A DNA stretch of 64,000 bases from Chondrosia reniformis (lineage: Eukaryota > Porifera > Demospongiae > Chondrillida > Chondrillidae), in NCBI GenBank assembly GCA_947172415.1, contig OX359192.1, forward strand, positions 8,707,901 to 8,771,900, given 5' to 3'. Numbering within the stretch: position 1 is the first letter of the stretch; every line of letters begins with the position of its first letter. The notes beneath the pieces were generated by a model. The model was not told the origin of the DNA and did not search any database. It saw only the letters and a list, made by a program, of their open reading frames with translations. This document shows positions 695 through 60,842 of the stretch, piece after piece. A program made the position numbers and the translations under genes.

Positions 695-785
695 AAAATA
701 ATGTAAAATGACAAACATTGGACCAAATTAATGTTTAATGTAAAATGACAAACATTGGACCAAATTTATGTTTAATGTAAAATGC
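695..785. repeat. 36-bp repeat at the 3' end of Frizzled-like copy 1 (about 2.5 units)
   Basis: Units of about 36 bp (AATGTAAAATGACAAACATT plus GGACCAAATTTATGTTT) run into the stop-codon end of the last exon. The same unit is expanded to about 7.5 copies at the 3' end of the second paralogue (5645-5920). The array therefore predates the gene duplication and has since changed length. Confidence 0.9.
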
Positions 786-3700
786 TTCTTTCAGTATTGG
801 ATCCACTGCTCTCCTTAAGAGCCTGTTCATTCCCTCTAGAGTCTTCAAGTATATCAACCCCTGCCTGAGCATTGCAGATGCAGGTGGTTAGTTCATACCC
901 TCTAGAGTCTTCAAGTATATCAGCCCCTGCCTGAGCATTGCAGATGCACGTGGTTAGTTCAGCCTCTTCCTTCGGACTCCTGTCATCCATTTCATTAAGA
1001 CAGTGATTTGGGGTGCCTGGTTCCTTGGAGAAAACGTAGGAAGCAGAATTCTCTGCTACTTCTGAGGATTTTAATGTGTTACTTTTTTTAAATTCAATGG
1101 AATCTCCAGTAGATTGTGTCTTTGAAAAGGTTGTAATTTTCATACACTTGCATACTCCTGCTGAAGAGAAGAATTTCGTTACTCTACTGATATCTTCACT
1201 GGTGAAAGCAAACACAAGATTGGACAACGGAAGTCCAGCAAGCAGGAGGAACACAATTCCATTAATGATAATTCCACTTTCAGCCCCTAGAGTAGGGCAC
1301 GAAGGATTATTCCCACTCAATTGGCAGAGGGCATATTGGATTGCAAGGCTGATATATACATCAAAAGTTGCAAATGATTCTGAAAAGCGCACTAGAGATA
1401 AGACTCCGGCTAAAAAGTATGTAATTGAGACCAACAACAGCTTTGCCTCTGGCGTACTTAGCAGCTTTCCTTTTCTGTACAGACCCTGAGTCTAAATGAA
1501 ACGTAGAGATGAGAAGAATCTTATGGAAGTCAAACAATTAATAATGATACCAGACACCTGTAGCTTTAGGTAGGCATTGAACAAAGCTCAGCAATTAATG
1601 TGTACATAAAAGTGTAAAGCTAGAAGTTCCAGTTAGTATATCTACTGAGTATAATCTTTGCATGTATGATAAATGTGGAATTGTAAAAAGAATCTTTTTA
1701 ATTGTCTGTGGCAGTTACATATAAATCACAAATTGCTTCTGAATCAACACATGCAGACACATGTCTCCTAATGTACGTACCTTGTGTGTCATCCAGAAGA
1801 GCATGAGAAGCAAGCTCACTCCAATGGTCATAATGATTTGAAGGGGGAAAACAAAAGTGTAAAATAAAACATCAAAATTATTAGCCATGCAGTCAACAGG
1901 AGGTAATCTTAATGGAATATAATCAAATCCTGCCAGTGTGATGATGGGTCCCAAAGCACTGATAAAAATCCCAACCACAATTATTGATATGTGGATTATA
2001 GTCTGTTTCTTCCTTTTCATAATTGATTTTGCTCTTGGTGATACCAACATGATACTAAGGTAGGTTATGTGAGCCAGCCAGAATATGAAGTTTAGGAGCA
2101 GCAAAAACTGGAACGTAACGCCTGTATATATATTGATAACAAGAATACTTGGTAAACATTAATATGTCTATATATATGTAAATCTCATATTATATGTAGC
2201 TATCTACACTGTAGTCATTTATAAAGTCTATTGTATGAATGTAATAGAGATGCAAGATAATTAATACATTTCAGTGAATTTGCCATCGATTGATACACTT
2301 TAAGAGCTAATGAGCCAACTGACCAGAAATGACACAGTAAGGCGATCCTTTCTGTAAAAGTGTTTCAATGAGATTGTCTGAAGAGCAAAGAATATTAATC
2401 CCTCCAATTGGTGGTATCAAAATAGATAGAACTATTGACATACAGAAATAAAATGAACTCCACAGAGTATGAAATGAGAACATGATAGATGATTGCATAT
2501 AAAACTCTGAAATTGCACTTTTCCAAGTAACTATATAGGGTTGTAATTAAATCATGTCATTGTTTAGTTAGGCAGTTTTTGTGGACCATTGATTTCCATA
2601 CATAACAGTATTGTATTCATAGAAAATTCCAGTGCATAGGTATACGTACGTACATGTATATGACTAATGGAATCTTTGTTTCGTGAAGATTTTCATGACC
2701 TACTAGAATTCTGGCAGATAGATACTAAGATGCTGTTGGTTAAATGACTGCTTGCTTACCATATAATACTTGCAGTACAGTTTCATATAACACCAAAATA
2801 GTTGGAAATCTCAATCTATTTCAATAATAATAATAATAATAATAATAAATAATGATTGTTTTTTATTGTGACATGCTATACAAAACTGAAATCAGTAAAA
2901 ACAGCCCAACCATAAGGGTTTATAAGTCACACTAGAAAGAGTTTACCATAAATTAGAGTGGAATAAGGATTTCTTCTAACTGCGTCGAACTTATCTTTGT
3001 AAAGTTCATCTTTCGACTTTGGGAGCGTCTAGGCGGTCACTGAAGAAGACCCCCAGGGTCGAAATGTTTGGCAGAAAGAAGAATTGAAAAAACTGCGTCT
3101 CTAGACGCTCCCAAAGTCGAAAGATGAACCTTTACAAAGATAAATTAGAATATCTTGCAATTGGATCGTATATAATATACATATAATATAATAAACTAAT
3201 AAATTTAACTTTAATAAACAAGGTTCATACATATTGGTATGCAACTCACAGTGCCTTGTGATGTATGACTGCCTTAACAATAAATATAGTCCCAGCAATC
3301 AGAGCAACTGCCACAGCAATGTACCTGCACACCTCTTCATAGAGGTATATAGATTGCTCTCTAAAGTTGAATGAGTCGCACTTCGGAAGGCAAAAGGAAC
3401 ATTCCTTATAAAAGCCAGGATGACAAGTAATGTTGGTAGATACTTCAACTGAGGAGTTGTTGGGTGATGTGCGGGTACTGCTTGCATTACAATGGGATAA
3501 CAAACTACTGTTGGACCATTCCTGGCAATGTATGGAAATATTTCTCTCCTCCAGAAAGGACCAAAGATTGTTGCCACACGGGGTTTCTCTCAGTTGAACA
3601 CAATCCTCCCATGTTGCACTAATGACTCCATCAATGGTGCAGGTTGGGTAAAGTAGAGCACACAATGCTGGCAGTTCTGATACACAGTTACTCATGTTGT

Positions 3701-4720
3701 CCATTAAAGTGAATGAGGTATTACCCTCCAGCGATATATTCAGAATCAAGCCATCAATAAAGTCAATATATTGCAGCTCAATTCCACTCAATAGAGGTGC
3801 CACACTGCTGCTGGACAAGAAGGTACTACAGATACCTCCTTTAGTCTCACAGCAAGAAGATGGAACACAGAGAGTTTCATCTACTCCAGGTCCTTCGGAA
3901 CAGATTGGTGCCTGCAGTGATGACATACAGGACACTTGGTCGTGCTATTGGTAATACTGTTACAGTAGTATTAATTTCACAACACAACCTACAATTTCTG
4001 GTAGTTCTTCACACTTGGGAAATTCAAAGTCTCTGGTCTGAGGATGGTTTTTAAGCAGGGACAACTCTCTCTCACAAAACTTGTTTGTGACATCTAAACA
4101 AGCACTTTTGCTAAGTTCGACAGTATGTCCGCCAGGCGCGCAGGGCCGATAGTAATACTGACAGAGCAGAGGGATTCCCATCTCCCTGCAAGCTGGTGAT
4201 ATGAAGGTGAAATAATCCTCAATGGCCTCAAAGATGCTTTGCACTTCTGATTCATCTCCTCTGATGCTAATAGACAAAGGAACTGAGCAACCTATATCCT
4301 CCAAATAACTTTTACAGAAGGAATCCTCTGGAAGCGGGACACAAACTGCGCTTTCAGTACTCTTCGTAATGCAGTGTTCTTTGGACTAAACAAGCAGTAG
4401 TAACACAACGATAACCTCTTGCTACATATTGTAACAGACGACATGCACATAGTTAAAGGTTTAGACTAAGCCTTATAATATCTGTGCCAATTTTATTAAC
4501 TCACTTGTCCTAGAGTTGTGTTTTCTATTTTAAGAGTACTAGAGCAGGAAGATTCGAGCACGTTTAACAGACCTTTCAGCTCATTTTTCCAGTCCTCAGC
4601 TGGCGGTCGGTAGACATGATAGATTATTAGTGGAAGCGTAAAAAGGGTGGCAATAGTTATTGTAGCGATCAGCAAAACGAGCTTTTCTTTCCTGTTAAAC
4701 AGACTATTTGCAGATTTCAT
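772..4720 (-). CDS. Frizzled/Smoothened-like 7TM receptor with two CRD-like modules, copy 1
   Basis: Six exons (4720-4505, 4385-3993, 3944-3250, 2517-2324, 2121-1781, 1491-772) join in frame to 852 aa. Exon 1 gives a short basic N-terminus and a hydrophobic segment (about residues 14-33), a signal anchor or signal peptide. Exon 2 is a Frizzled-type cysteine-rich domain, with CREMGIPLLCQYYYRPC, an ACLDV helix and FPKCEELP. Exon 3 has a second CRD-like block (LPALCALLYPTC, WEDCVQLRETPC), a Cys-rich linker and TM1. Exons 4-6 carry TM2-TM7. The cytoplasmic tail contains a 22-residue tandem repeat starting ELTTCICNAQAG. Intron 2 is only 48 bp. Canonical Frizzleds have one CRD, so this belongs to a lineage-specific Frizzled/Smoothened-like group. 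Whether it binds Wnt is unknown. Its tandem paralogue is at 5907-9549. Confidence 0.85.
832..965 (-). repeat. 66-bp coding duplication in the receptor tail
   Basis: Two adjacent 66-nt copies encode 22-residue units beginning ELTTCICNAQAG, differing at a few residues (ADILEDSRGY versus VDILEDSRGN). The paralogue has one unit. This accounts exactly for the 22-residue length difference between the predicted proteins (852 versus 830). Confidence 0.9.
2823..2848. repeat. (AAT)n microsatellite
   Basis: About nine AAT/ATA units in the fourth intron of Frizzled-like copy 1. A shorter, interrupted version is at the matching place in copy 2 (about 7868-7890). Confidence 0.9.
2958..3149. mobile_element. 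Non-autonomous foldback element (about 192 bp) with 9-bp target duplication
   Basis: Present in the intron of Frizzled-like copy 1 and absent from copy 2. TAAATTAGA occurs at 2949-2957 and again at 3141-3149, while copy 2 has one uninterrupted copy. This defines an insertion with a 9-bp target-site duplication. Inside, about 40-nt arms (about 2991-3032 and 3103-3143, containing GACTTTGGGAGCGTCTAG and its complement) form a long hairpin. The loop holds CTGAAGA...GACCCCCAGGGTC-GAAA. No coding capacity. A 9-bp duplication fits Mutator-type or similar transposases, but the family is not assigned. Confidence 0.8.
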
Positions 4721-4889
4721 CTCGGTTAGTGCAGCCGATCTAAGTTAGCTAGACAGACAGACTTAGCCAAACATCCTAAACCTGACACGGTTATGAATAT
4801 AAATTTGTTCACTAAAATGGGCATTGCTCGGTATGGGATAGGAATGTTTTATGTAAAGAGACTTAACCTACGGGGACTTGGGATCGTTA

Positions 4890-5037
4890 AACATAGAATG
4901 CGCAACGCAATTTAGGAATTCCTACAATGCGTAGATTGTTGCGCATTCTATAGAAAGTGCACGTTCGATTCTATAGAAAGTGCACGTTCGATTCTATAGA
5001 AAGTGCACGTTCGATTCTATAGAAAGTGCACGTTCGA
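4890..5037. repeat. Inverted repeat followed by 23-bp tandem repeat (4 copies)
   Basis: ATAGAATGCGCAACGCAAT near 4893 is answered by ATTGTTGCGCATTCTAT near 4935, giving a short hairpin. The right arm then runs into four copies of a 23-bp unit (ATTCTATAGAAAGTGCACGTTCG). The tandem units reuse the hairpin end ATTCTATAGAA, so they may have grown from it. The block lies upstream of Frizzled-like copy 1, beyond the point (about 4890 versus 9735) where the two paralogue copies stop aligning. Confidence 0.85.
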
Positions 5038-5055
5038 TTAATGCAACACAAGAAA

Positions 5056-5331
5056 CTAAACACAAGACACTGGAAGAGTGCAGCTCTCAAAGTGGCAGCC
5101 ATTGAGGTACATAACTTCCTTACAACTAATCATAAAGTCTTTAACAGTCAAGTAGTAGTTTACAGAGTGTTCTGTTGTATTCCATAATCTGCCCACAGGA
5201 AGGCACTGAAACTGGTAGCTCAGCCTACGAGAATGCACCCTTTGACCCACCTCCAGATAGAATGGACAAACTGTATGACCAGCTGTATAATAGGAGATGC
5301 TTGGAAATACCACAGAGGGCATTAAAGTAAG
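5056..5331 (-). pseudogene. Orphan Cys-rich exon-like ORF between the Frizzled-like paralogues
   Basis: An acceptor-like CAG at about 5332 is followed by about 90 open codons to a stop at 5056. The peptide has five cysteines late in the frame (FMISCKEVMYLNGCHFESC) and an NTT glycosylation sequon. The spacing CKE...GC...SC loosely recalls the CRE...LCQYYYRPC part of the neighbouring CRD exons, so it may be a decayed receptor exon. No partner exons were found nearby. It could also be an unrelated short gene or chance. Confidence 0.3.
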
Positions 5332-5424
5332 CTGAGGACCATATACTGTAGGACAGCAACACAGTCATATATACTGCAAATGTCTTTACAATAATATCTT
5401 TAATGTGTACATAATAATATAACA

Positions 5425-5510
5425 AAATGTATGTGGACCCTCGCTTATCCGGACCCAAGGGCCTGAAATATGTCCAGATAACTGAAACGACCGGATATGT
5501 GAAGCAATAC
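5425..5510. mobile_element. Possible pogo-like DNA transposon end (remnant)
   Basis: GTGGACCCTCGCTTATCCGG followed by ACCC...GTCCAGATAACTGAAACGACCGGATA resembles the terminal motif of pogo/Tigger-type elements and their MITEs, where phrases such as ACCTCG-TTATCCGGAC are common. Only one end is seen, with no transposase. Recognition is from memory of the motif alone. Confidence 0.35.
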
Positions 5511-5644
5511 TTGTATGTATAATGCATACACATATATAATGTATATTTATATAATTATAATGAATAATCAAAGTGATAATCAAACCACAAGTATAATCAG
5601 TCAAACATCAATAGGAGGGGAAAACACGAAAGAAGCAATTGCAA

Positions 5645-5920
5645 CAAAAATAATGTAAAATGACAAACATTGGACCAAATTTATGTCTAATGTAAAATGA
5701 CAAACATTGGACCAAATTTATGTTTAATGTAAAATGACAAACATTGGACCAAATTATGTCTAATGTAAAATGACAAACATTGGACCAAATTATGTCTAAT
5801 GTAAAATGACAAACATTGGACCAAATTTATGTTTAATGTAAAATGACAAACATTGGACCAAATTTATGTTTAATGTAAAATGACAAACATTGGACCAAAT
5901 TTATGTTTAATGTAAAATGC
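5645..5920. repeat. 36-bp tandem repeat at the 3' end of Frizzled-like copy 2 (about 7.5 units)
   Basis: Direct repeats of the unit AATGTAAAATGACAAACATT-GGACCAAATTTATGTTT (36-37 bp) end at the stop codon of the paralogue at 5907. Some units lack one T. It corresponds to the shorter array at 695-785. Confidence 0.92.
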
Positions 5921-8900
5921 TTCTTTCAGTATTGGATCCACTGCTCTCCTTAAGAGCCTGTTCATTCCCTCTAGAGTCTTCAAGTATATCAGCCCCTGCC
6001 TGAGCATTGCAGATGCACGTGGTTAGTTCAGCCTCTTCCTTCGGACTCCTGTCATCCATTTCATTAAGACAGTGATTTGGGGTGCCTGGTTCCTTGGAGA
6101 AAACGTAGGAAGCAGAATTCTCTGCTACTTCTGAGGATTTTAATGTGTTACTTTTTTTAAATTCAATGGAATCTCCAGTAGATTGTGTCTTTAAAAAGGT
6201 TGTAATTTTCATACACTTGCATACTCCTGCTGAAGAGAAGAATTTCGTTACTCTACTGATATCCTCACTGGTGAAAGCAAACACAAGATTGGACAACGGA
6301 AGTCCAGCAAGCAGGAGGAACACAATTCCATTAATGATATTTCCACTTTCAACCCCTAGAACAGGGCATGAAGGATTATTCCCATTCAATTGGCAGAGGG
6401 CATATTGGATTGCAAGGTTGATATATACATCATGAGTTGCAAATGATTCTGAAAAGCGCACTAGAGATAAGACTCCGGCTAAAAAGTATGCAATTGAGAC
6501 CAACAACAGCTTTGCCTCTGGCGTACTTAGCAGCTTTCCTTTTCTGTACAGACCCTGAGTCTAAAGGAATGTAGAGATGAGAAGAATCTTATGGAAGTCA
6601 AACAATTAATAATGATACCAGACACCTGTAGCTTTAGGTAGGCATTGAACAAAGCTCAGCAATTAATGTGTACATAAAAGTGTAAAGCTAGAAGTTCCAG
6701 TTAGTATAGCTACTGAGTATGTAATCTTTGCATGTATGATAAATGTGGAATTGTAAAAAGATACTTTTTAATTGTCTGTGGCAGTTACATATAAATCACA
6801 AATTGCTTCTGAATCAACACATGCAGACACTAATGTACGTACCTTGTGTGTCATCCAGAAGAGCATGATAAGCAAGCTCACTCCAATGGTCATAATGATT
6901 TGAAGGGGGAAAACAAAAGTGTAAAATAAAACATCAAAATTATTAGCACTGCAGTAAACAGGAGGTAATCTTGACGGAATATAATCAAATCCTGCCAGTG
7001 TGATGATGGGTCCCAAAGCACTGATAAAAATCCCAACCACAACTATTGATATGTGGATTATAGTCTGTTTCTTCCTTTTCATAATTGATTTTGCTCTTGG
7101 TGATACCAACATGACACTAAGGTAGGTTATGTGAGCCAGCCAGAATATGAAGTTTAGGAGCAGCAAAAACTGGAACATAACACCTGTATATATATTGATA
7201 ACAAGAATACTTGGTAAACATTAATATGTCTATATATATATAAATCTCATATTATAGCTATATGCACTGTAGTCATTTATATGAATGTAATAAAGATGCA
7301 AGATAATTAATACATTTCAGTGAATTTGCCATCGATTGATACACATTGGGAGCTAATGAGCCAACTGACCAGAAATGACACAGTAAGGCGATCCTTTCTG
7401 TAAAAGTGTTTCAATGAGACTGTCTGAAGAGCAAAGAATATTAATCCCTCCAATTGGTGGTATCAAAATAGATAGAACTATTGACATACAGAAATAAAAT
7501 GAACTCCAAAGAGTATGAAATGAGAACATTATAGATGATTGCATATAAAACTCTGAAATTGCACTTTTCCAAGTAACTATATGGGGTTGTAATTAATACA
7601 TGTCATTGTTTAGTTAGGCAGTTTTTGTGGACCATTGATTTCCATACATAACAGTATTGTATATTCATAGAAAATTCCAGTGCATAGGTATACGTATATT
7701 ACTAATGGAATCTTTGTTTCGTAAAGATTTTCATGACCTACTAGAAGGCAGCTTGTAAATAGATACTGAGATTCTATTGGTTAAATGACTGCTTGCTTAC
7801 CAAATAATACTTGCAGTACAGTTTCATATAACACCAAAATAGTTGGAAATCTCAATCTATTTCAATTAAAATAATAATAATAATAATATAAATAATGATT
7901 GTTTATTATTGTGACATGCTATACAAAACTGAAATCAGTAAAAACAGCCACAAGGGTTTACATTAGAAAGAATTCACCATAAATTAGAGTATCTTGCAAT
8001 TGGATAGTATATAATATACAAATAATATAATAAACAAGGTTCATAGGTTCAAGGATCAAGGTTCATTGGTATGCAACTCACAGTGCCTTGTGATGTATGA
8101 CTGCCTTAACAATAAATATAGTCCCAGCAATCAGAGCAACTGCCACAGCAATGTACTTGCAAACCTCTTCATAGAGGTATATAGATTGCTCTTTAAAGTT
8201 GAATGAGTCGCACTTCGGAAGGCAAAAGGAACATTTCTTATAAAAGCCAGGATGACAAGTAATGTTGGTAGATACTTCAACTGAGGAGTTGTTGGGTGAT
8301 GTGTGGGTACTGCTTGCATTACAATGGGACAACAAACTACTGTTGGACCATTCCTGGCAATGTATGGAAATATTTCTCTCCTCCAGAAAGGACCAAAGAT
8401 TGTTGCCACACGGGGTTTCTCTCAGTTGAACACAATCCTCCCATGTTGCACTAATGACTCCATCAATGGTGCAGGTTGGGTAAAGTAGAGCACACAATGC
8501 TGGCAGTTCTGATACACAGTTACTCATGTTGTCCATTAAAGTGAATGAGGTATTACCCTCCAGTGATATATTCAGAATCAAGCCATCAATAAAGTCAATA
8601 TATTGCAGCTCAATTCCACTCAATAGAGGTGCCACACTGCTGCTGGACAAGAAGGTACTACAGATACCTCCTTTAGTCTCACAGCAAGAAGATGGAACAC
8701 AGAGAGTTTCATCTACTCCAGGTCCTTCGGAACAGATTGGTGCCTGCAGTGATGACATACAGGACACTTGGTCGTGCTATTGGTAATACTGTTACAGTAG
8801 TATTAATTTCACAACACAACCTACAATTTCTGGTAGTTCTTCACACTTGGGAAATTCAAAGTCTCTGGTCTGAGGATGGTTTTTAAGTAGGGACACCTCT

Positions 8901-9549
8901 CCCTCACAAAACTTGTTTGTGACATCTAAACAAGCACTTTTGCTAGGTTCGACAGTATGTCCGCCAGGCGCGCAGGGCCGATAGTAATACTGACAGAGCA
9001 GAGGGATTCCCATCTCCCTGCAAGCTGGTGATATGAAGGTGAAATAATCCTCAATGGCCTCAAAGATGCTTTGCACTTCTGATTCATCTCCTCTGATGCT
9101 AATAGACAAAGGAACTGAGCAACCTATATCCTCCAAATAACTTTTACAGAAGGAATCCTCTGGAAGCGGGACACAAACTGCGCTTTCAGTACTCTTCGTA
9201 ATGCAGTGTTCTTTGGACTAAACAAGCAGTAGTAACACAACGATAACCTCTTGCTACATATTGTAACAGACGGCATACACATAGTTAAAGGTTTATAAGC
9301 CTTTTAATATCTGTGCCAATTTTATTAACTCACTTGTCCTAGAGTTGTGTTTTCTATTTTAGGAGTACTAGAGCAGGAAGATTCGAGCACGTTTAGCAGA
9401 CCTTTCAGCTCATTTTTCCAGTCCTCAGCTGGCGGTCGGTAGACATGATAGATTATTAGTGGAAGCGTAAAAAGGGTGGCAATAGTTATTGTAGCGATCA
9501 GCAAAACGAGCTTTTCTTTCCTGTTAAACAGACTATTTGCAGATTTCAT
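5907..9549 (-). CDS. Frizzled/Smoothened-like 7TM receptor with two CRD-like modules, copy 2
   Basis: Same six-exon structure as copy 1: 9549-9334, 9217-8825, 8776-8082, 7563-7370, 7183-6843, 6560-5907. It predicts 830 aa. Domain order is N-terminal hydrophobic segment, Frizzled CRD (CQYYYRPC, FPKCEELP), second CRD-like block (ALCALLYPTC, WEDCVQLRETPC), Cys-rich linker, TM1-TM7 and a Cys-containing tail. Protein differences from copy 1 are few, for example LS to PS in the CRD exon, R to K in the linker, and one tail repeat instead of two. The copies therefore arose by a recent tandem duplication of about 4.8-5.1 kb. Copy 2 lacks the 192-bp intronic insertion. Both reading frames look intact. 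Confidence 0.85.
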
Positions 9550-36963: not shown

Positions 36964-37408
36964 TGATACATAAACCTTTCCAATGTTCATTTATCAGCTC
37001 TTCATATTGTATCATGCAATAAAGTTTAAGTATTGTATAAGAAAGAAACATTTGCTGGGTACAATGCCTTGTGACTATTAATGGTGAATGTGTATTACAA
37101 TTTCGAAACTTTTATCATCAACATTATTTGTTGCAAATTTATATGCTTACTATTTATATGCATACTTGATAATTACACTTACTAGTCTACTGTAATTCAG
37201 GAAATGTTTGTATTGAAATATTTGCCCAAACCACAAACATTTCACACATGAAATTTTCACTTCATTCATTTGTGTGAATCAAGAAGTGCGTTTGGCTTGG
37301 ACCATGAAAATATTTTATAACAAAAATTTTTCAAATTTACAGTAGAGTAAAGAAATCATACTGTCACTCTTGTACATTTACCATGTCCATGCGCTATGTA
37401 AAAATTAT
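36964..37408. other. Convergent intergenic region
   Basis: AATAAA at 37018-37023 is a likely polyadenylation signal for the beta-helix gene. The rest is AT-rich with no coding feature. The ACAD gene ends at 37409 on the other strand. Confidence 0.55.
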
Positions 37409-38650
37409 TCAATTAGGCAAGGTGCCAGAGAGCTTGCAAATGATGGACAGCATCACTTCATCAGCTCCAGCTCCAATAGACAGCAGTCTAACGTCACGAT
37501 ACATCCTTGACACCTCCATTTCTGACATGTAACCCATACCTCCCCAAAACTGCAGACAGGCATCCGTAGTCTCCCTGCTCAGACGGCCAGCCTTCAGTTT
37601 TGCCATGGAAGCTAGTTTGGTCACATCGTATCCCTTCATGTGCAACCCTACTGCTCGGTAGACCAGGGAACGAAGTGCCTCTACCTCACTCTCCAGCTCG
37701 GCCAGTCTGAAGTGAACAGTCTGGTTGCTCAAGATGCTCCTTCCAAAAGCCTTTCTCTCCCTTGTGTAGTCTGCAGTCTCACTTATAAGTCTCTCCAGAG
37801 GCAGCAAAATAGAGCTTGCTGCCCACAAGCGCTCTCGTTGGAACTGCATCATCTGGTACATGAACCCCTTACCTTCCTCACCAATAATATTCCTACTTGG
37901 AATGCGTACATTGTCAAAGAAGATTTGCGCAGTATCAGAAGAATGGTGGCCAAGTTTCTTCAATATCCTGTCCACCGTTACTCCCTTGGTCTTCATGGGA
38001 AGGCAGATCAGCGACTTGTTCTTGTGGACGTCTGGACCCTCGCTAGTGTTGGCCAACAGACACATCCAGTCCGCCTGCGACCCACTGGTCGTCCACATCT
38101 TGCCACCATTAATCACCAGATCGTCTCCCGACCTCTTTGCAGTCGTTTTGATGCTAGCTACATCGGATCCAGATCCAACCTCGCTCACTCCGAGACAAGC
38201 CACCATATCCCCTGCTATCGTTGGAGAAAGAAAGGATTTCTTGAGCTCGTCGCTTCCAAACATGGCCAAGGCTGGAGTTGTCATGTCGCTTTGCACGCCA
38301 ATAGCCATCGGTACACCGCCGTTCTTAATGTGTCCGAGCTCTTCTGCTATAGCGACAGCATAACTATAGTCCAATCCCAGTCCTCCGTACTGCTCTGGCA
38401 TCGTAGCACCGAGAAATCCGTGCTCTCCCAGTTTCTTCATGACCTTGTGAGCTGGGAAGGGAGGCGATTCCTCCCATTCTTCCACGTAAGGATTAATCTC
38501 CACATCAATCAGTTTACGAAGCGATTCACGGAGTCGCTTGTGATCCTCAGAGAAAATGGATTCTTCTTGATAAGGAATGGAGGTCACAGAGCGAAATTGC
38601 GAACATCTAAAGCTCGCAGGCCGAAATACACACCTAACAAAGGACGCCAT
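37409..38650 (-). CDS. Mitochondrial acyl-CoA dehydrogenase (intact copy)
   Basis: Intronless, 413 aa. N-terminus MASFVRCVFRPASFRCSQFR is Arg/Ser/Phe-rich without acids, a probable mitochondrial presequence. ACAD motifs in order: LGEHGFLGATMPEQYGGLGL; VACLGVSEVGSGSDVASIKT (flavin/substrate signature 1); GGKMWTTSGSQADW; FDNVRIPSRNIIGEEGKGF; RKAFGRSILSNQTVHFRLAE; QFWGGMGYMSEMEVSRMYRD. The usual C-terminal catalytic Glu site (YEGT) reads IGAGADEVML, lacking that Glu. FQRERLWAAS on the helix that carries the base in LCAD and IVD has a Glu instead. So it is likely an LCAD/IVD-type dehydrogenase, perhaps for branched or unusual acyl-CoAs. Divergent from EME1. Confidence 0.92.
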   Translation of the reverse strand: MASFVRCVFRPASFRCSQFRSVTSIPYQEESIFSEDHKRLRESLRKLIDVEINPYVEEWEESPPFPAHKVMKKLGEHGFLGATMPEQYGGLGLDYSYAVAIAEELGHIKNGGVPMAIGVQSDMTTPALAMFGSDELKKSFLSPTIAGDMVACLGVSEVGSGSDVASIKTTAKRSGDDLVINGGKMWTTSGSQADWMCLLANTSEGPDVHKNKSLICLPMKTKGVTVDRILKKLGHHSSDTAQIFFDNVRIPSRNIIGEEGKGFMYQMMQFQRERLWAASSILLPLERLISETADYTRERKAFGRSILSNQTVHFRLAELESEVEALRSLVYRAVGLHMKGYDVTKLASMAKLKAGRLSRETTDACLQFWGGMGYMSEMEVSRMYRDVRLLSIGAGADEVMLSIICKLSGTLPN

Positions 38651-38707
38651 CTTTGATTAGAGGTCAATGATCGATCAGGCACTTATACGTATGTAGTAAT
38701 GTATTAA
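38651..38707. promoter_or_regulatory. Shared divergent promoter ACAD/EME1
   Basis: 57 bp between start codons, including TGATCGATCA and TACGTA palindromes. It has been copied in inverted orientation to 41824-41876, with a 4-bp deletion. Confidence 0.6.
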
Positions 38708-41182
38708 ATGGCCGTGCTACTCGATTCGGATAATAACTCTGACAGCGAAAGCAACCCTTTGCCTGATTTCTCTTGTGTATTTGATGTTGCCTCATCGAAA
38801 TCGTCCGATAGACATGGATGTTTGCAAAATTCGCGGGAAAAAGCAATAAATTTGACTAAAAGAAAGCGAAACATGGTTCGAACTTGTTATTACTATATAT
38901 GTCAAATGATCTATTTATCTAATTTCTCAGGTTATTTAACTCATTGTATATACTTTATGCACAATAGCATGTTCAGAGTTACATACTGTATTTGTGTTAA
39001 TGTAATGTTGGTCTACTGCAGGTAGTTGATCATGAGAGAACTACAGCTAAAATGGACAGGAAATTACAAAGAGAAGCAGATCGCAGGGAGAAGAGGCTTC
39101 GAAAGGACAAGGAGAAAGCTTCTCAGAAGGTGGTACTGTTGCATGTTCTCAATAGCAATTGACCCAAGTCTTCCTCCCATTTACTGCTCACAGACAGAGA
39201 GAGAAGCGAGGGCCGAAGTGAAGCCAGGTGAAAGACAAAAGGTATTACATTCACAGTCAGACCCTTGCATACCTACTACAAGTACTACTACTCACTGACT
39301 GTAGATATAGTGTATCTTCCTGTCAGCTTGTGTGTTAAATTCCAGTAATGTTGTACTCCATGTCCTCAGCAAATGACCGTCATGCTTGGAGAGGATCTAT
39401 CAGAACTGCTGCTTGAGGAGCTGGGCAGAGGTCTAGTGGAGTATGATATTCAGTTGGAGACAGCTAGACACCTCACCTCTGGTACAGTCAGGTGGAAGAG
39501 AGCGGTGCATACAAGATCTGTTGACCAAACTGCTCAAGTAGGTTATCCAATCAGTTTGTTAATTATATTATATTAGTATCTTCTCAATACAGATTTTACT
39601 GAATAAAGAATACAGTTTAGAAGGTCATGTTCTGATTTGTTTGACAGCCAAGGAATTTGTTTCTTTGTTGCTAGGTGACAGAGAAGTAGGTTTGCTCAAT
39701 CAGTGTTGCCTTTAAAGTGATTGTCTTTCTATTCCTCACAGTTGAGGATGGGTAGAACTGCTGACAAGTCCCTGATCCAGTTTGTTGAGCATCTGATCAG
39801 AGAGAGCTACCCTGAGTGTCAGCTGACAGTTGCGGTCTCTGGGATGGAAGCTTACTACAGGTAGCTGTCCACAGATCCGTGTACTGTATTTCAGTACTGC
39901 TCCACGTAGTTCACTGCTTTGATGTAGAAGTATTAAAACTAAACATAATAGACAGTTTAAGCAGCAAGTAAGGGATGGTATAACGACAGGGACTCACTCC
40001 CAGCCTCAGTCTGTATCAAAGACAGACGTGCAGGAAGGTCTGGTTAATGTACAGTTGCAGACTGGTTGTGTTGTGAGGCTGGTTGAAAAGTCATCGCATC
40101 TTGTTGAACTGATAGTTCATTTCACCAGAGCCATTGCTGACAAGCCATACAAGAAGACTAGTCTCTTTTCCTTCCACCCTGATCAAGCAACTTCTTCAAA
40201 AAAAGTAAAGACAATAATTATTCTTTAAAATGACCTGTAGTAATCTTTTTGTCTTTTTGCTTGCACTTTGCATAAATTCTATATTTGAGTTACAGTTTAA
40301 ATTATTGTACTAGCACCAACAAGGTGTTATGAGAAGAATGTAAACACTGCTTAAATGTGTAGTGTTTGTCATGTGTTATGAACTTTATAAGCTTCCCTAA
40401 TAATGATGATAGCCTGAGGTCTACAACACAGGATACTTACGTATCAGTAGCAGATTGGAGGGCGGGGGTGCTATTATTAGTTTTATTAGTATCTAGGAGT
40501 CACATTTGTACAAGGCCTATATCTCCATGAATCTGAAATGGTGCAGATTGATAAGGTTAAGCTAATCTATGTGTCCATGAATTGTTTTGAATTTCTTGTT
40601 CTGTAGAAAACTGATCAAAAGACTGAAGCTTCAGTTGCCTGGCAACATATGGTAATGCAGTTTACAAATGTGTCATCTCAGGTGGCTGCTGCCATAGTAA
40701 CAGAGTACCCCACTCCATCTTCACTCTATAAGGTGGGCCCCTTAGAATTGTATGCACCCTAATCTTTGCAGGGTCACTTGTTTGTATGTAAACTGGATCT
40801 CTGAGTTGCATATTTAGTTTGTAGTTTCCACTCTTGTCTCATGTACTCTACTATTCCATGCAGGCGTATCAAAGTTGTACCAATGTAAAAGAAGCCGAGT
40901 TATTACTTCAAAACATAACAGTAAGTCAATGTACATATTTCCTTGTTGAGCTGATAATCATTGTTAAACAACTGTTATGTAATGCATGTACGTTAGTCAC
41001 TGACATTTAATTAAACAGTTTCAGTTATTCATATAGTGCAACTGTATTCAGTGCTGTATACTCCAATGCAGGTGAGAAGAGGCGTTGGAGTGACAGCCTC
41101 GAGCAGAAGAGTAGGACCCATCTTTTCCCGAAGACTACACTCCTTTTTAACTGACACTGATGGACAAACCACATTATCCTAA
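38708..41182 (+). CDS. EME1: EME1-like subunit of the MUS81 structure-specific endonuclease
   Basis: Exon 1 starts MAVLLDSDNNSDSESNPLPD, an acidic Ser/Asp N-terminus as in EME1. Short exons then give the basic helix RKLQREADRREKRLRKDKEK and VKPGERQK. The catalytically inactive ERCC4-like nuclease domain follows: LIQFVEHLIRESYPECQLTV; TDVQEGLVNVQLQTGCVVRL; LVELIVHFTRAIADKPYKK. The helix-hairpin-helix C-terminus has AAAIVTEYPTPSSLYKAYQS and ITVRRGVGVTASSRRVGPIF, ending TTLS at 41182. These blocks match EME1 (VDAEEALVDLQLHT, FTKAVAEAPFKK, VRRGEGVTSTSRRIGPELS). Known role: non-catalytic partner of MUS81 in cutting branched DNA, in the nucleus. About ten small exons. Confidence 0.9.
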
Positions 41183-41226
41183 TCATTCTAATTTGTAAGT
41201 GTTAGAAATGTAAGTTCACCGAAAAT

Positions 41227-41604
41227 ATGATGACCTTCGTAAGTCGTGTACTTGGGCGTGCGAGCTTTAGATGTTCGCAATTTCGCTCTGTGACCTCCAT
41301 TCCTTATCAAGAAGAATCCATTTTCTCTGAGGATCACAAGCGACTCCGTGAATCGCTTCGTAAACTGATTGATGTGGAGATTAATCCTTACGTGGAAGAA
41401 TGGGAGGAATCGCCTCCCTTCCCAGCTCACAAGGTCATGAAGAAACTGGGAGAGCACGGATTTCTCGGTGCTACGATGCCAGAGCAGTACGGAGGACTGG
41501 GATTGGACTACAGCTATGCTGTCGCTATAGCAGAAGAGCTCGGACACATTAAGAACGGCGGTGTACCAATGGCTATTGGCGTGCAAAGTGACATGACAAC
41601 CTGA
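41227..41604 (+). pseudogene. Truncated acyl-CoA dehydrogenase copy (N-terminal third)
   Basis: 125 codons from ATG 41227. The first 11 differ from the intact copy (MMTFVSRVLGR), then the sequence is nearly identical from ASFRCSQFRS to MAIGVQSDMTT. The frame then meets a stop, because the DNA switches to an inverted copy of EME1 sequence (from CTGAGAAATTAG). The junction shares AAC between both sources. It has silent differences from both other copies (for example TACAGC versus TATAGT), so it is a third distinct copy rather than a simple repeat of either. Confidence 0.85.
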
Positions 41605-41899
41605 GAAATTAGATAAATAGATCATTTGACATATATAGTAATAACAAGTTCGAACCATGTTTCGCTTTCTTTTAGTCAAATTTATTGCTTTTTCCCGCGA
41701 ATTTTGCAAACATCCATGTCTATCGGACGATTTCGATGAGGCAACATCAAATACACAAGAGAAATCAGGCAAAGGGTTGCTTTCGCTGTCAGAGTTATTA
41801 TCCGAATCGAGTAGCACGGCCATTTAATACATTACTACATATAAGTGCCTGATCGATCATTGACCTCTAATCAAAGATGGCGTCCTTTGTTAGGTGTGT
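41605..41899 (-). pseudogene. Inverted copy of EME1 exon 1 plus the divergent promoter
   Basis: Reverse-complement copy of about 38627-38932: part of EME1 intron 1, exon 1 (ATG at 41823 on the - strand, MAVLLDSDNN), the shared promoter (53 bp here, 57 bp in the original), and the first codons of ACAD (ATG 41877 on +, MASFVRCVFR). Reading on the - strand, EME1 exon 1 runs on through the antisense of the truncated ACAD copy as a 211-codon chimeric open frame ending at 41188. It has no obvious function. Confidence 0.85.
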
Positions 41900-44060
41900 A
41901 TTTCGGCGTAGTCTGATGAAATCAGACCCAAAACTTACGCAATACTTGCTCCAGTAAGGGTCTGACAACTTACGGCCGGTTTGCTGTTGCACGGTCGCAA
42001 TTAACACCGACCATTCTGTGGTCAAACACCTTCCATATTTGGTAATTGGAATGTAAACATTGCCGTCCTTATTAATAATTAACAAGTGTGCAAAATACAA
42101 GACTAAATGGCAGTCCACTCAAGTTTTATCTAGAAGAAATCCACGCACAAAATCCTTTCTGTTGTTGTTCTTAAAAGTTGGCTGGGGCTTCAATGGATGG
42201 TTTGTCCTTCCACTATCACTGAAGAGATCTGCTTGACTTAGCAGCTGTGAAGCTTTTCGAATGTCTGGAGACAAGTCAGGCGACTTGTGTGTTCCAGGGC
42301 TATAGTGGTCATCAAAACTGCTGCAAATCGACTTGAGAATATCCAGAATACGCCCAGTCCGCAAGATGGTGTTTTCTGTCAAGTTTGAACCAGCCTCTGA
42401 TATGGTATTTCTTCAAATCTCTGTATATTAACTTAAGTCGATTTGCAGCAGTTTTGATGACCACTATAGCCCTGGAACACACAAGTCGCCTGACTTGTCT
42501 CCAGACATTCGAAAAGCTTCACAGCTGCTAAGTCAAGCAGATCTCTTCAGTGATAGTGGAAGGACAAACCATCCATTGAAGCCACAACAGAAAGGATTTT
42601 GCTGCGTGGATTTCTTCTATATATAACTTGAGTGGACTGCCATTTAGTCTTGTACTTTACACACTTGTTAATTATTAATAAGGACGGCAATGTTTACATT
42701 CCAATTACCAAATATGGAAGGTGTTTGACCACAGAATGGTCGGTGTTAATTGCGACCGTGCAACAGCAAACCGGCCGTAAGTTGTCAGACCCTTACTGGA
42801 GCAAGTATTGCGTAAGTTTTGGGTCTGATTTCATCAGACTAATTTCGGCGTGCGAGCTTTAGATGTTCGCAATTTCGCTCTGTGACCTCCATTCCTTATC
42901 AAGAAGAATCCATTTTCTCTGAGGATCACAAGCGACTCCGTGAATCGCTTCGTAAACTGATTGATGTGGAGATTAATCCTTACGTGGAAGAATGGGAGGA
43001 ATCGCCTCCCTTCCCAGCTCACAAGGTCATGAAGAAACTGGGAGAGCACGGATTTCTCGGTGCTACGATGCCAGAGCAGTACGGAGGACTGGGATTGGAC
43101 TATAGCTATGCTGTCGCTATAGCAGAAGAGCTCGGACACATTAAGAACGGCGGTGTACCAATGGCTATTGGCGTGCAAAGCGACATGACAACTCCAGCCT
43201 TGGCCATGTTTGGAAGCGACGAGCTCAAGAAATCCTTTCTTTCTCCAACGATAGCAGGGGATATGGTGGCTTGTCTCGGAGTGAGCGAGGTTGGATCTGG
43301 ATCCGATGTAGCTAGCATCAAAACGACTGCAAAGAGGTCTGGAGACGATCTGGTGATTAATGGTGGCAAGATGTGGACGACCAGTGGGTCGCAGGCGGAC
43401 TGGATGTGTCTGTTGGCCAACACTAGCGAGGGTCCAGACGTCCACAAGAACAAGTCGCTGATCTGCCTTCCCATGAAGACAAAGGGAGTAACGGTGGACA
43501 GGACATTGAAGAAACTTGGCAATCATTCTTCTGATACTGCGCAAATCTTCTTTGACAATGTACGCATTCCAAGTAGGAATATTATTGGTGAGGAAGGTAA
43601 GGGGTTCATGTACCAGATGATGCAGTTCCAACGAGAGCGCTTGTGGGCAGCAAGCTCTGTTTTGCTACCTCTGGAGAGACTTATAAGTGAGACTGCAGAC
43701 TACACGAGGGAGAGAAAGGCTTTTGGAAGGAGCATCTTGAGCAACCAGACTGTTCACTTCAGACTGGCCGAGCTGGAGAGTGAGGTAGAGGCACTTCGTT
43801 CCCTGGTCTACCGAGCAGTAGGGTTGCACATGAAGGGATACGATGTGACCAAACTAGCTTCCATGGCAAAACTGAAGGCTGGCCGTCTGAGCAGGGAGAC
43901 TACGGATGCCTGTCTGCAGTTTTGGGGAGGTATGGGTTACATGTCAGAAATGGAGGTGTCAAGGATGTATCGTGACGTTAGACTGCTGTCTATTGGAGCT
44001 GGAGCTGATGAAGTGATGCTGTCCATCATTTGCAAGCTCTCTGGCACCTTACCTAATTGA
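41877..44060 (+). pseudogene. Second acyl-CoA dehydrogenase copy, 5' end disrupted by the transposon
   Basis: The ATG and 10 codons (MASFVRCVFR) at 41877-41906 are separated from the rest of the gene (42842-44060) by the 933-bp insertion, which brings an early stop. The remaining frame is open from the presequence region to LCKLSGTLPN-type C-terminus at 44060, and carries all motifs of the intact copy, with a few changes (RTLKKLGNH versus RILKKLGHH; SSVLL versus SSILL). With no upstream in-frame ATG it would lose the mitochondrial presequence and part of the N-terminal domain. Recent inactivation is likely; an alternative promoter or start cannot be excluded. Confidence 0.85.
41909..42841. 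mobile_element. 933-bp foldback DNA transposon with 9-bp target duplication
   Basis: Flanked by ATTTCGGCG at 41900-41908 and 42842-42850; the intact ACAD gene has this site once (ATTTCGGCC in the original copy). Ends are TAGTCTGATGAAATCAGACC and its exact complement. The inverted arms are about 420-460 nt each, almost the whole element, with a few indels near the centre (about 42400). Each arm carries a 70-80-codon open frame (CHLVLYF, NKDGNVYIPITKYGRCLTTE), at 41867-42118 (-) and 42632-42862 (+). No transposase. A 9-bp duplication and very long terminal inverted repeats fit a non-autonomous Mutator-like or Foldback element. Confidence 0.9.
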
Positions 44061-45430
44061 ACAATAATAATTATAATTGATGCTATTTTTATTTAACTCT
44101 AAAATTTGTGGTAACGTTTCTAACTTATACTTTTGTAAAAGATATATTGTAAATATTGTCCAATAATAATGGTGTTCTCTTAATTATTGATCAATGGAAT
44201 CAGATCTGTTAAAATGTTTAATGGAATATAGTTTTTAGCTAGCTATTCAATTAGTGCATGGTCAGACACACATCCTGCCAAAACATGTCAACCACTGTCA
44301 TAGTTGGACAGAAAAGCTATTATTTTTAATAATCTATACAAAGTAAGTTAAAAGGGCATGCACATGATCATGAATTACTCAACTTTATATACAACAAATT
44401 AATGCTGCAGCTGGTTTCCTCAAGTACATCTGCCTGATCTCAATTGCATGGTATTAGTTGACTATAGGTGAATATACCACTAGATTTACAAAAATTGAAT
44501 AATGTATTTCCAATTGAATGCATGGTTGCCAGGAAACTGCACACTGGAGAAACTTTTCAATAAGGTAGGGTATATACAAAAGCAAACAAGATGATGTTTA
44601 ATGTAAGCACATTTAGGCACATTTAGACAAGTTGTCATTATTTACACCTCAGATGGACAAGCACTGTAACCTGTAAATGCATGAATACTATAGGAACTGG
44701 AATGGAGAAGTTATTTTTGGTTGCCATGGAAACCTTTCCCCAAGAAATTATAAAAAGCAGGCTACATATGTACTTATACACAATGTACATTTTGAATTAA
44801 CAGTTCTACTTAACTATATACCATTTTGCTTAAATTACTTTGGCCGTCAACATAGTTTTCCTTTTGTTTATTATATATTATCAAGAGACAACCGTTACCA
44901 TGGAAACATTTCTATACATAAGTAAATGGGGAAAAGTAGAAACAAGATGCATATAATTAATAATTGGTAAACTCTATTTGCATGACAAGTTAATTATCAA
45001 TGTAGCTTAACAGCAAAATAGTGTTGTTGCTTTAAAAAGTATATTTCACATAGATGTGTATAACCAAAAAGTGAGGCAAATAATCTGCAAGATGTAGAGA
45101 AACTGATGAGCCTACACTACCTAACTGAGTATAACTAGGGGCTCTCTGATGCAAATATGGTAGTCCCATTGAATGAATATTACAATCTAATCATGTCAAT
45201 TCATGCGCTTGCAAGAGCTTGTGCATATGTTTAAAATTGAAAATTACTGCTGAAACAATTAGAGGTTCATTAAGAAAATAATTTGCATGTTGATTAAGCA
45301 CTTTTATTCGTGCATGGAGATCACTCGACAATAATTGATTTGCTTCGCTGAATAGCCATGCATGTTTCATGTTTGAACTCAATAACAATAACAACTTGTT
45401 GAATAGGCTGGGTCATGTAGTACATATTGT
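44061..45430. other. Intergenic, no gene seen
   Basis: AT-rich DNA with only short, compositionally biased open frames. A phrase GGTTGCCATGGAAACC occurs at about 44717-44733 and TTACCATGGAAAC at 44894; these resemble X-box-like palindromes but no gene start is nearby. Confidence 0.5.
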
Positions 45431-58134: not shown

Positions 58135-58427
58135 GGTCCACCTGAGGCGACTGAAGCCGAAGAAATATAGCCTCTGATAAAGGGGACGGTTATTGAATCA
58201 TCACCTATATACTAACGAAACATCACGTTATTGGAATGCTATGAATATCTTTGGTAAGCGAATCAGTGCCTGTGGCGTCAAGTCCTTGAGATAGATTGAA
58301 ATGGTGCGTAAATTTATAATGATCAAGACAAAGTTGCCAGGTTATTACACCTCCTTTATGCTGCCACACCCTATGTGGATGGAGGCACGAACACTCATTG
58401 GCTCCAGTCATGATCTCCTCTGACCTT
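58135..58427. other. 5' flank of the first GABA-B-like receptor
   Basis: No ORF supported. It should contain the promoter of the - strand receptor (58134). A TATAAAGG-like run occurs on the + strand only as TGATAAAGGGGA (about 58176). Confidence 0.4.
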
Positions 58428-60429: not shown

Positions 60430-60842
60430 TCAATTGATACACAATCCTACGGGCACACTTTAGTATATGACATCTGGATATCTTTCACATGACCTCTATG
60501 CACTAAACACATATATGCCTCACTGTACATACATAAGCACTTCAAAATGTGTGTGCAAACTTCCTTCTTGCTGAAGCTTGTCCCTTGTATGTCATACATA
60601 TGTCTAGCACTAACCTTTCCACCGGTCTGGGTTGCTTCACTTAAAGAGCCTTCTGAAGATGATTATGACAGCCATTTATAATTTTAATAGCTCCCTGCGC
60701 TTATGCCATATGCCATATGCCATTCGCGAGAGGACATTACGTCATATAAAGGGGTGATCCAATCGCTTGGAAATCTATTAAGCAGCTCATTCCAAATGAT
60801 TAAAAGTAATCGTGACTTCGCTTGCAATGAAAGAATTGGAGA
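60430..60842. promoter_or_regulatory. 5' flank of the second GABA-B-like receptor
   Basis: Contains TATAAAGGGG at 60736-60745, a TATA-like element about 100 bp upstream of the ATG at 60843, and repeated GCCATATGCCATATGCCAT at about 60703. No coding feature. Confidence 0.45.

Follow-up and report, generated by a model that had tools for sequence, protein, structure and literature searches.

Tandem Frizzled-like receptor genes in the sponge Chondrosia reniformis encode one cysteine-rich domain and most likely a second, diverged one

Introduction

Frizzled and Smoothened have one cysteine-rich domain (CRD) each, and how movement of the CRD is transmitted to the seven-transmembrane (7TM) bundle is still debated. 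Corin, a type II transmembrane protease, has a membrane anchor near its N-terminus and carries two Fz domains. Here we describe two neighboring genes, A and B, on chromosome 4 of the sponge Chondrosia reniformis, within a stretch of 64,000 nucleotides (GenBank assembly GCA_947172415.1, contig OX359192.1; C4:8707901-8771900), hereafter the window; genome searches covered the whole 117.38-Mb assembly of 15 contigs. We read A and B as two recent duplicates, each encoding an N-terminal hydrophobic segment, two CRDs (CRD1 and CRD2), a Cys-rich linker and a strongly divergent 7TM domain of class F type, in which CRD1 would catch the ligand, CRD2 would couple it to the membrane domain, and Dishevelled motifs are lacking. 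To this composite reading we assign a probability of about 0.5.

The published sources cited here were covered in part, and statements about them apply to the portions covered. Fz-type CRDs contain the arrangement C6-X3-C7 and the disulfides C1-C5, C2-C4, C3-C8, C6-C10 and C7-C9, and the C7-C8 interval is seven residues long in receptor kinases but six in Frizzleds; the same source refers to a 'first FZ-CRD' of CORIN (PMC6938638). Among sponges, Amphimedon has three full-length Frizzleds, left from nine initial Frizzled-like sequences when six were dropped as fragments (PMC4302439), and Halisarca has six Frizzleds with a CRD (PMC8235796). Choanoflagellates have no Frizzled (PMC12716839), and in D. 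discoideum the KTXXXW motif is retained only in FslJ and FslK (PMC10445921). The portions covered do not mention two CRDs for Amphimedon (PMC4302439), Halisarca (PMC8235796), choanoflagellates (PMC12716839), fungi and sponges (PMC3251606) or amoebae (PMC10445921). Literature searches aimed at Frizzled-type 7TM proteins with two Fz domains turned up none recognisable by title or abstract opening, in a collection that holds few subscription journals.

The A/B family resembles Frizzled in its extracellular Fz-type CRD, Cys-rich linker and 7TM domain, and in an [FY]P motif at intracellular loop 1 (ICL1) and transmembrane segment 2 (TM2), where the Frizzleds of this genome have YPERPI-like motifs. 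It differs in that A and B probably have two CRDs rather than one, with eight rather than ten CRD cysteines, in lacking both a PF01534 match and KTxxxW, in a long N-terminal hydrophobic segment, and in its multi-exon genes, the five canonical Frizzleds of the genome lying in single open frames. The amoebozoan Fsl/Fsc receptors are likewise an independent expansion of divergent Frizzled-like receptors, with the CRD lost in many members, but they are amoebozoan, two CRDs go unmentioned for them in the portion covered (PMC10445921), and they are set beside A and B here by description, not by sequence. The receptor kinases MuSK and ROR supply the best-scoring solved CRDs by sequence and share the seven-residue C7-C8 spacing of exons 2 and 3 (PMC6938638), whereas they have ten CRD cysteines and no 7TM domain. 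Corin resembles the architecture proposed for A and B in placing two Fz-type domains behind an N-terminal membrane anchor; it lacks a 7TM domain, whereas A and B have seven further hydrophobic segments, and no protease family was among the two families listed in a full-length Pfam scan.

Results

Structure of the tandem genes

Genes A (4720-772) and B (9549-5907) lie head to tail on the minus strand and are both intact; the stop codon of A ends at position 772, and the ATG of B starts at 9549 (Table 1). Each model has seven exons separated by GT-AG introns, with phases 0,0,2,1,1,0 in both copies, and the spliced proteins comprise 842 (A) and 820 (B) residues. A preliminary description of this DNA, made from the sequence alone, had proposed two tandem copies with two CRD-like exons, a Cys-rich linker and TM1-7, and all of these lie where it had placed them. 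Its count of six exons per gene had to be abandoned: the paralogs described below carry a separate TM2 exon, and comparison with them located the overlooked counterpart in A and B, a 56-bp mini-exon encoding ICL1/TM2 (LRFPTILVLYET...). The proposal that two CRD-like modules would belong to one class-F-like 7TM protein gains from the open frames, splice sites and phases of both copies and from the homology of the modules to paralog CRDs. An alternative acceptor candidate for exon 3 lies 33 bases downstream (CTGCAG/GCA) and keeps the phase.

Because phase-0 introns flank exon 2 on both sides, this exon could be added or skipped without a change of frame. Exon 2 might accordingly be an alternative cassette, each gene then producing both-CRD transcripts and CRD2-only transcripts (exon 1 to exon 3), and hence one- and two-CRD isoforms, with retention of intron 2 yielding a membrane-anchored CRD1 decoy. 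Besides the flanking phases, the idea draws on intron 2 itself, which is only 48 bp long, has the same sequence in A and B and contains the end of the exon 2 open frame, and on the one-CRD layout of the single-CRD paralogs; against it, neither A nor B shows any damage to exon 2, and we consider it rather improbable.

A short tandem repeat (unit like taatgtaaaatgacaaacattggaccaaattta) was seen by eye at the 3' end of both genes, at about 680-780 and 5640-5910.

CRD1 and CRD2

Exon 2 had been described as a Frizzled-type CRD, and this was borne out: in A it matches Pfam Fz with an expectation value (E) of 3.8e-7 and 31.1 bits, just below the gathering score of 32.1 bits, and in B the match rises above that cut-off when the frame neighbors of the exon are included. 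A and B have, in exon 2, the N-terminal Fz-type CRD that is looked for in Frizzled and class F proteins. In the alignment, exon 2 is 28-32% identical to the three CRDs of a group of paralogs on chromosome 3 (C3a), as against 17% to exon 3. All nine of its genome matches outside the window at E<=1 fall in one cluster at C3:1.54-1.64 Mb (best E 4.1e-9). N-glycosylation sequons are absent from CRD1 (residues 73-203), and nine occur in residues 204-402, at residues 272-374.

Exon 3 most likely encodes a second, diverged CRD; the direct evidence for this is weak, and the evidence by way of its relatives is better. Against a profile built from exon 2 and seven paralog CRDs it scores 21.6 bits, which no shuffled sequence reached (0/2000 by composition, 0/2000 with cysteines fixed). 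With exon 2 left out of the profile, the exon 3 score was reached by 1/2000 and 0/2000 shuffles, respectively, with a canonical-Frizzled CRD profile by 0/2000 and 1/2000, and with all CRDs combined by 0/2000 and 0/2000. A phmmer comparison of the CRD part of exon 3 with 1441 open reading frames (ORFs) no shorter than 50 residues ranked paralog CRD ORFs in the first eight places after self-matches (E 7.8e-5 to 0.015), with an unrelated window ORF ninth at E 0.025. Reverse searches with paralog profiles retrieved exon 3 at E 1.5e-4 and 6.9e-5. Exons 2 and 3 both align to the single CRD of several paralogs, over stretches that overlap. A full-length Pfam scan with a permissive threshold of E<=10 listed Fz at 25.2 bits and with two stretches, of which the better one lies in CRD1.

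The cysteines of exon 3 follow those of the family. When exons 2 and 3 are aligned with six paralog CRDs, eight columns are invariant, every one of them cysteine; for the last cysteine of exon 3 the aligner picked a different residue from the one marked earlier. The ten-Cys pattern against which the modules were to be checked is thus reduced to eight: C6 is absent from 8/8 aligned CRDs, and no cysteine is conserved at C10, although individual members have one close by. Both cysteines of the C6-C10 disulfide seem to have been lost together, which would leave four possible bridges. C7-C8 spacing is seven, as in the kinases, in exons 2 and 3, and six in the C3b CRD examined. The eight-Cys spacing of exon 3 arose in 43 of 100000 shuffles, with limits that were set after the family was known. 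Among the 1441 ORFs, 22 matched the eight-Cys pattern and 21 of these are CRD ORFs; the remaining one is a run of cysteines, which we discarded as a false positive.

A profile of the CRD family, built mostly from paralog sequences, listed 17 PDB sequences at E<=10. All but one (16/17) belong to Fz-CRD proteins, and six of these have E<1e-3. Its best matches were ROR2 (1.2e-8), MuSK (5.9e-7) and FZD3 (3.1e-4), and the Smoothened CRD matched weakly (E 0.26).

The gene family

Matches to exon 6 were found at no fewer than 19 places in the genome and matches to exon 3 at no fewer than 18, the A/B pair included in both counts; one exon 6 match contains four stops and one exon 3 match two. In 13 paralog exons (L008, L010-L021) a single CRD is joined to the same linker and TM1. 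When eight family exons were scanned against Pfam Fz, L014, L015, L016 and L021 scored above the cut-off and L008, L011 and L013 below it, and the CRD-less L009 gave no match. Two members read have no CRD, one at C7:5.47 Mb, where the signal segment and linker share one exon, and one at C4:1.15 Mb. Among the family genes read, only A and B appear to have two CRDs. Loci that are partial or of unassigned CRD state are L023 together with L033:4988-5251, L035:5427-5729 (a CRD piece upstream of the first exon of another gene), L027:4237-4596, C5:2.46 Mb, C4:1.455 Mb and C8:3.76 Mb. This survey places A and B in what, judged by sequence, is a multigene sponge family with a modular CRD, present in 0, 1 or 2 copies on a shared linker and 7TM core.

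Two other Fz-containing loci were encountered. At L040 135-2029 (C12:6.818 Mb), two Fz-like ORFs, one at E 1.6e-6 but below the cut-off and the other weak (E 0.046), stand beside a kringle-like ORF identified by eye, which recalls a gene of the ROR/MuSK type. Four Fz matches above the cut-off lie within 8 kb at C13:6620276-6628206.

Origin of the second CRD

Phylogenetic analysis of the CRDs left exon 3 unplaced; its neighbors in the best tree are the C3b and C11 CRDs (support values 67/81). One tree, though not the other, grouped exon 2 with a C3a CRD (81/78). Two routes to a second CRD can be proposed, namely duplication within the gene, or capture of CRD1 from a single-CRD paralog on chromosome 3 by exon shuffling. 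Exon 2 is symmetric and of phase 0, and the restriction of its outside matches to the C3 cluster also fits such an origin. The trees do not separate the two routes, as joining exon 2 with exon 3 costs 3.3 log-likelihood units (lnL) and joining it with the C3a CRDs 0.8 lnL, with P values of 0.289 and 0.373 in the approximately unbiased (AU) test. We put this account of the second CRD forward tentatively, at somewhat less than even odds.

The 7TM domain and the N-terminus

Neither single exons nor spliced protein gave a match to Pfam Frizzled (PF01534), and a genome search with this model returned five canonical Frizzled genes (C10, C1), none of them from the A/B family. A five-sequence profile of the family 7TM domain, in contrast, found only two PDB matches at E<=10, and both are FZD3 (E 2.1e-7 and 6.9e-7), over approximately TM1-TM5. 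Profile-profile comparison with four of the genome's own Frizzleds was weak (probability 37%, E 3.6e-4). A tree of six family and four canonical sequences split the two groups at 100/100, as it would any two groups.

The three Dishevelled-binding motifs, comprising the C-terminal KTxxxW and motifs of ICL3, were taken from the portion covered of PMC8235796, with KLEKLMVR relaxed to KLxxLxxR for the scan, and none occurs in A or B. Three of the five canonical Frizzleds carry KTxxxW, which is missing from all six family sequences for which a last exon is available, namely A, B and four paralogs. The label 'Frizzled-like', which had been applied to these genes at the outset, is a loose one, given the lack of a Pfam Frizzled match in the 7TM domain and of the three Dishevelled motifs. 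The best reading of the sequences would be a class-F-like family without a Dishevelled motif.

Hydropathy analysis of A gave 13 overlapping segments that merge into eight places, one N-terminal (residues 12-36) and seven between residues 407 and 701. With start codons chosen by hand, the N-terminal KD19 values are 2.32-3.09 in 8/8 members checked, versus 1.19-1.63 in 5/5 canonical Frizzleds. Such strong hydrophobicity suggests an uncleaved N-terminal anchor, which would fix the ectodomain to the membrane at either end; hydropathy is what this suggestion draws on.

Divergence of the two copies

The coding sequences of A and B are about 98.5% alike where aligned, with 34 of 820 codons differing (25 nonsynonymous and 9 synonymous), and their duplication is recent. 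The nonsynonymous and synonymous rates (dN and dS) were 0.0148 and 0.0165 by NG86 (dN/dS about 0.9) and 0.0167 and 0.0119 by YN00 (dN/dS about 1.4). Nonsynonymous and synonymous changes numbered 3 and 1 in CRD1, 0 and 2 in residues 204-352, and 20 and 5 in the linker and 7TM domain; these counts do not allow selection to be judged. A pseudogene reading was set aside, as A and B are both intact, although a dN/dS near 1 on few changes is no proof of constraint.

So small a difference, in merely 34 of 820 aligned codons, could also mean that A and B are a single locus whose two haplotypes the assembly failed to collapse, and curation of this assembly did take out 4 haplotypic duplications (PMC12181767, in the portion covered). 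The copies, however, follow each other in the same orientation on a single sequence, separated by intergenic DNA, and their indels differ, with 213 gap columns in intron 3 and 66 bp in exon 7, so that we regard an assembly artifact as very unlikely.

Nine of the 20 nonsynonymous differences in the linker and 7TM domain cluster at A residues 560-568 and 646-677, near the presumed extracellular loops (ECL) 2 and 3 (in the window exons 2121-1781 and 1491-772), a clustering that involves few changes. Intron 3 measures 434 bp in A (2816-3249) and 225 bp in B, and the part at about 2980-3140 resembles an inverted repeat by eye.

Table 1. Exon models and selected features of genes A and B, in window coordinates
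Feature	Position	Strand	Description
A exon 1	4505..4720	-	N-terminus with a hydrophobic stretch of 24 residues, either a long signal peptide or a signal anchor; KD19 2.51
A exon 2	3993..4385	-	CRD1 (Fz domain), spanning residues 73-203, free of N-glycosylation sequons; both flanking introns in phase 0
A intron 2	3945..3992	-	48 bp, GT-AG; in-frame stop if retained
A exon 3	3250..3944	-	Putative CRD2 (3477-3899, residues 219-359), Cys-rich linker, TM1
A exon 4	2760..2815	-	56-bp mini-exon, ICL1/TM2
A exon 5	2324..2431	-	End of TM2, ECL1 with two Cys
A exon 6	1781..2121	-	TM3-TM5
A exon 7	772..1491	-	TM6-TM7 and the cytoplasmic tail, in which 66 bp are duplicated in frame compared with B
B exon 1	9334..9549	-	Model matching A
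B exon 2	8825..9217	-	CRD1; Pfam Fz 31.0 bits alone, 32.8 bits with frame neighbors
B exon 3	8082..8776	-	Putative CRD2, linker, TM1; 141-residue CRD2 stretch identical to A
B exon 4	7801..7856	-	TM2 mini-exon
B exon 5	7370..7477	-	Model matching A
B exon 6	6843..7183	-	TM3-TM5
B exon 7	5907..6560	-	TM6-TM7 and tail

Other features of the window

Elsewhere in the window, two large single-frame ORFs, at 55666-58197 (minus strand) and 60831-63638 (plus strand), resemble by eye G-protein-coupled receptors of class C (GABA-B/glutamate type). An inverted repeat at 37404-44065 has 1224-nt arms that are 99% complementary, each encoding an ORF that looks by eye like an acyl-CoA dehydrogenase. Tandem arrays of 20-bp and 36-bp units begin at 30687 and 58280 and run for about 1.8 kb each, the second keeping several frames open.

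Discussion

Several results weigh against the architecture and the workings that we propose. Scanned alone, exon 3 has no Pfam match at E<=10, and profile-profile comparison of exon 3 is weak with the paralog CRDs (probability 46%, E 2.1e-4) and weaker still with Frizzled CRDs (probability 24%, E 8.6e-4). The AlphaFold model of CRD2, made like that of exon 2 from an alignment of the two window copies only, has a mean predicted local distance difference test score (pLDDT) of 43.2; Foldseek found no match to it at E<=0.001 and no CRD among the 50 best of 125 matches at E<=10. In the CRD trees exon 2, too, sits on a long branch, and the AU test did not reject any of four groupings (P 0.229-0.373), including that of exon 3 with canonical Frizzled CRDs (0.288). 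Purifying selection between A and B is not demonstrated, and the pattern of changes fits relaxed constraint equally well. IRxV is present in 0/5 and KLxxLxxR in 2/5 of the genome's canonical Frizzleds, so that the absence of these two motifs from A and B, shared with all or most canonical Frizzleds, says little. As to the N-terminal segment, the longest stretch free of D, E, K, R, N and Q in the family member C4_L038 is 16 residues, no longer than in the Frizzled L003.

A structural comparison with a known CRD had been suggested for both modules. Prediction did not settle the fold of either: the exon 2 model has a mean pLDDT of 41.8, and its Foldseek search gave no match at E<=0.001, FZD3 CRDs ranking first and third of four matches at E 3.8 and 8.8, which is not significant. 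The fold confidence of both models is too poor to confirm a CRD in exon 2 or exon 3, and the claim of a second CRD stands on the homology of exon 3 to paralog CRDs and the eight shared cysteines, set against the missing Pfam match and a CRD fold that AlphaFold leaves unsupported. We consider it quite probable that exon 3 is homologous to the CRDs, and are less confident that it works as one. Exon 2 might instead be the only working CRD, the exon 3 segment being a degenerate one that serves as a glycosylated Cys-rich stalk and lengthens the linker. In addition to its Pfam result, exon 3 sits on a long branch (3.73 changes per column in one tree and 2.61 in a second, exon 2 itself reaching 2.74 and 2.38), it lies in the region that holds all nine N-glycosylation sequons, and its C3-C4 spacing is 7, versus 8 in exon 2 and two canonical Frizzleds. 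A decayed domain is harder to reconcile with the retention of all eight family cysteines; the 141-residue stretch that is the same in A and B, and the lack of nonsynonymous changes in residues 204-352, also argue against it, but this identity weighs little because the copies are too young. On balance we think a degenerate CRD2 unlikely, though a stronger contender than the cassette model above.

Our preferred reading, with two CRDs, starts from the gene structure, the CRD homology, the family and the missing motifs, which rest on the data; from these we infer how the receptor would work, dividing the labor between the CRDs by position, sequence and glycan sites. The N-terminal hydrophobic segment is probably an uncleaved membrane anchor. 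CRD1 probably captures the ligand, since it is closer to the single CRDs of the family and has no glycan sites. CRD2 is juxtamembrane, where the paralogs carry their one CRD, and is more diverged and rich in glycan sites; it probably acts as a coupler or spacer, holding and orienting CRD1 and relaying its movement to the linker and the 7TM bundle. Signaling would proceed without the known Dishevelled motifs, presumably via G proteins.

More speculatively, the family may represent a branch of sponge class F in which both ends of the ectodomain are tethered to the membrane, CRD number evolves freely from 0 to 2 and signaling is free of Dishevelled. In the two-CRD members, the pair of CRDs might form an arch above the membrane and read a ligand that is bivalent or composite, for example a lipid, microbial or self, together with a protein; we hold this broader picture as doubtful. 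The preliminary description had speculated that a two-module receptor could bind a dimeric ligand, or else a lipid and a protein. With a common 7TM core that comes with no CRD, one or apparently two, these genes form a natural family for asking what the CRD contributes. Sponge class F diversity may also exceed what Pfam-based surveys report, because the PF01534 search of this genome recovered five genes and none from the A/B family.

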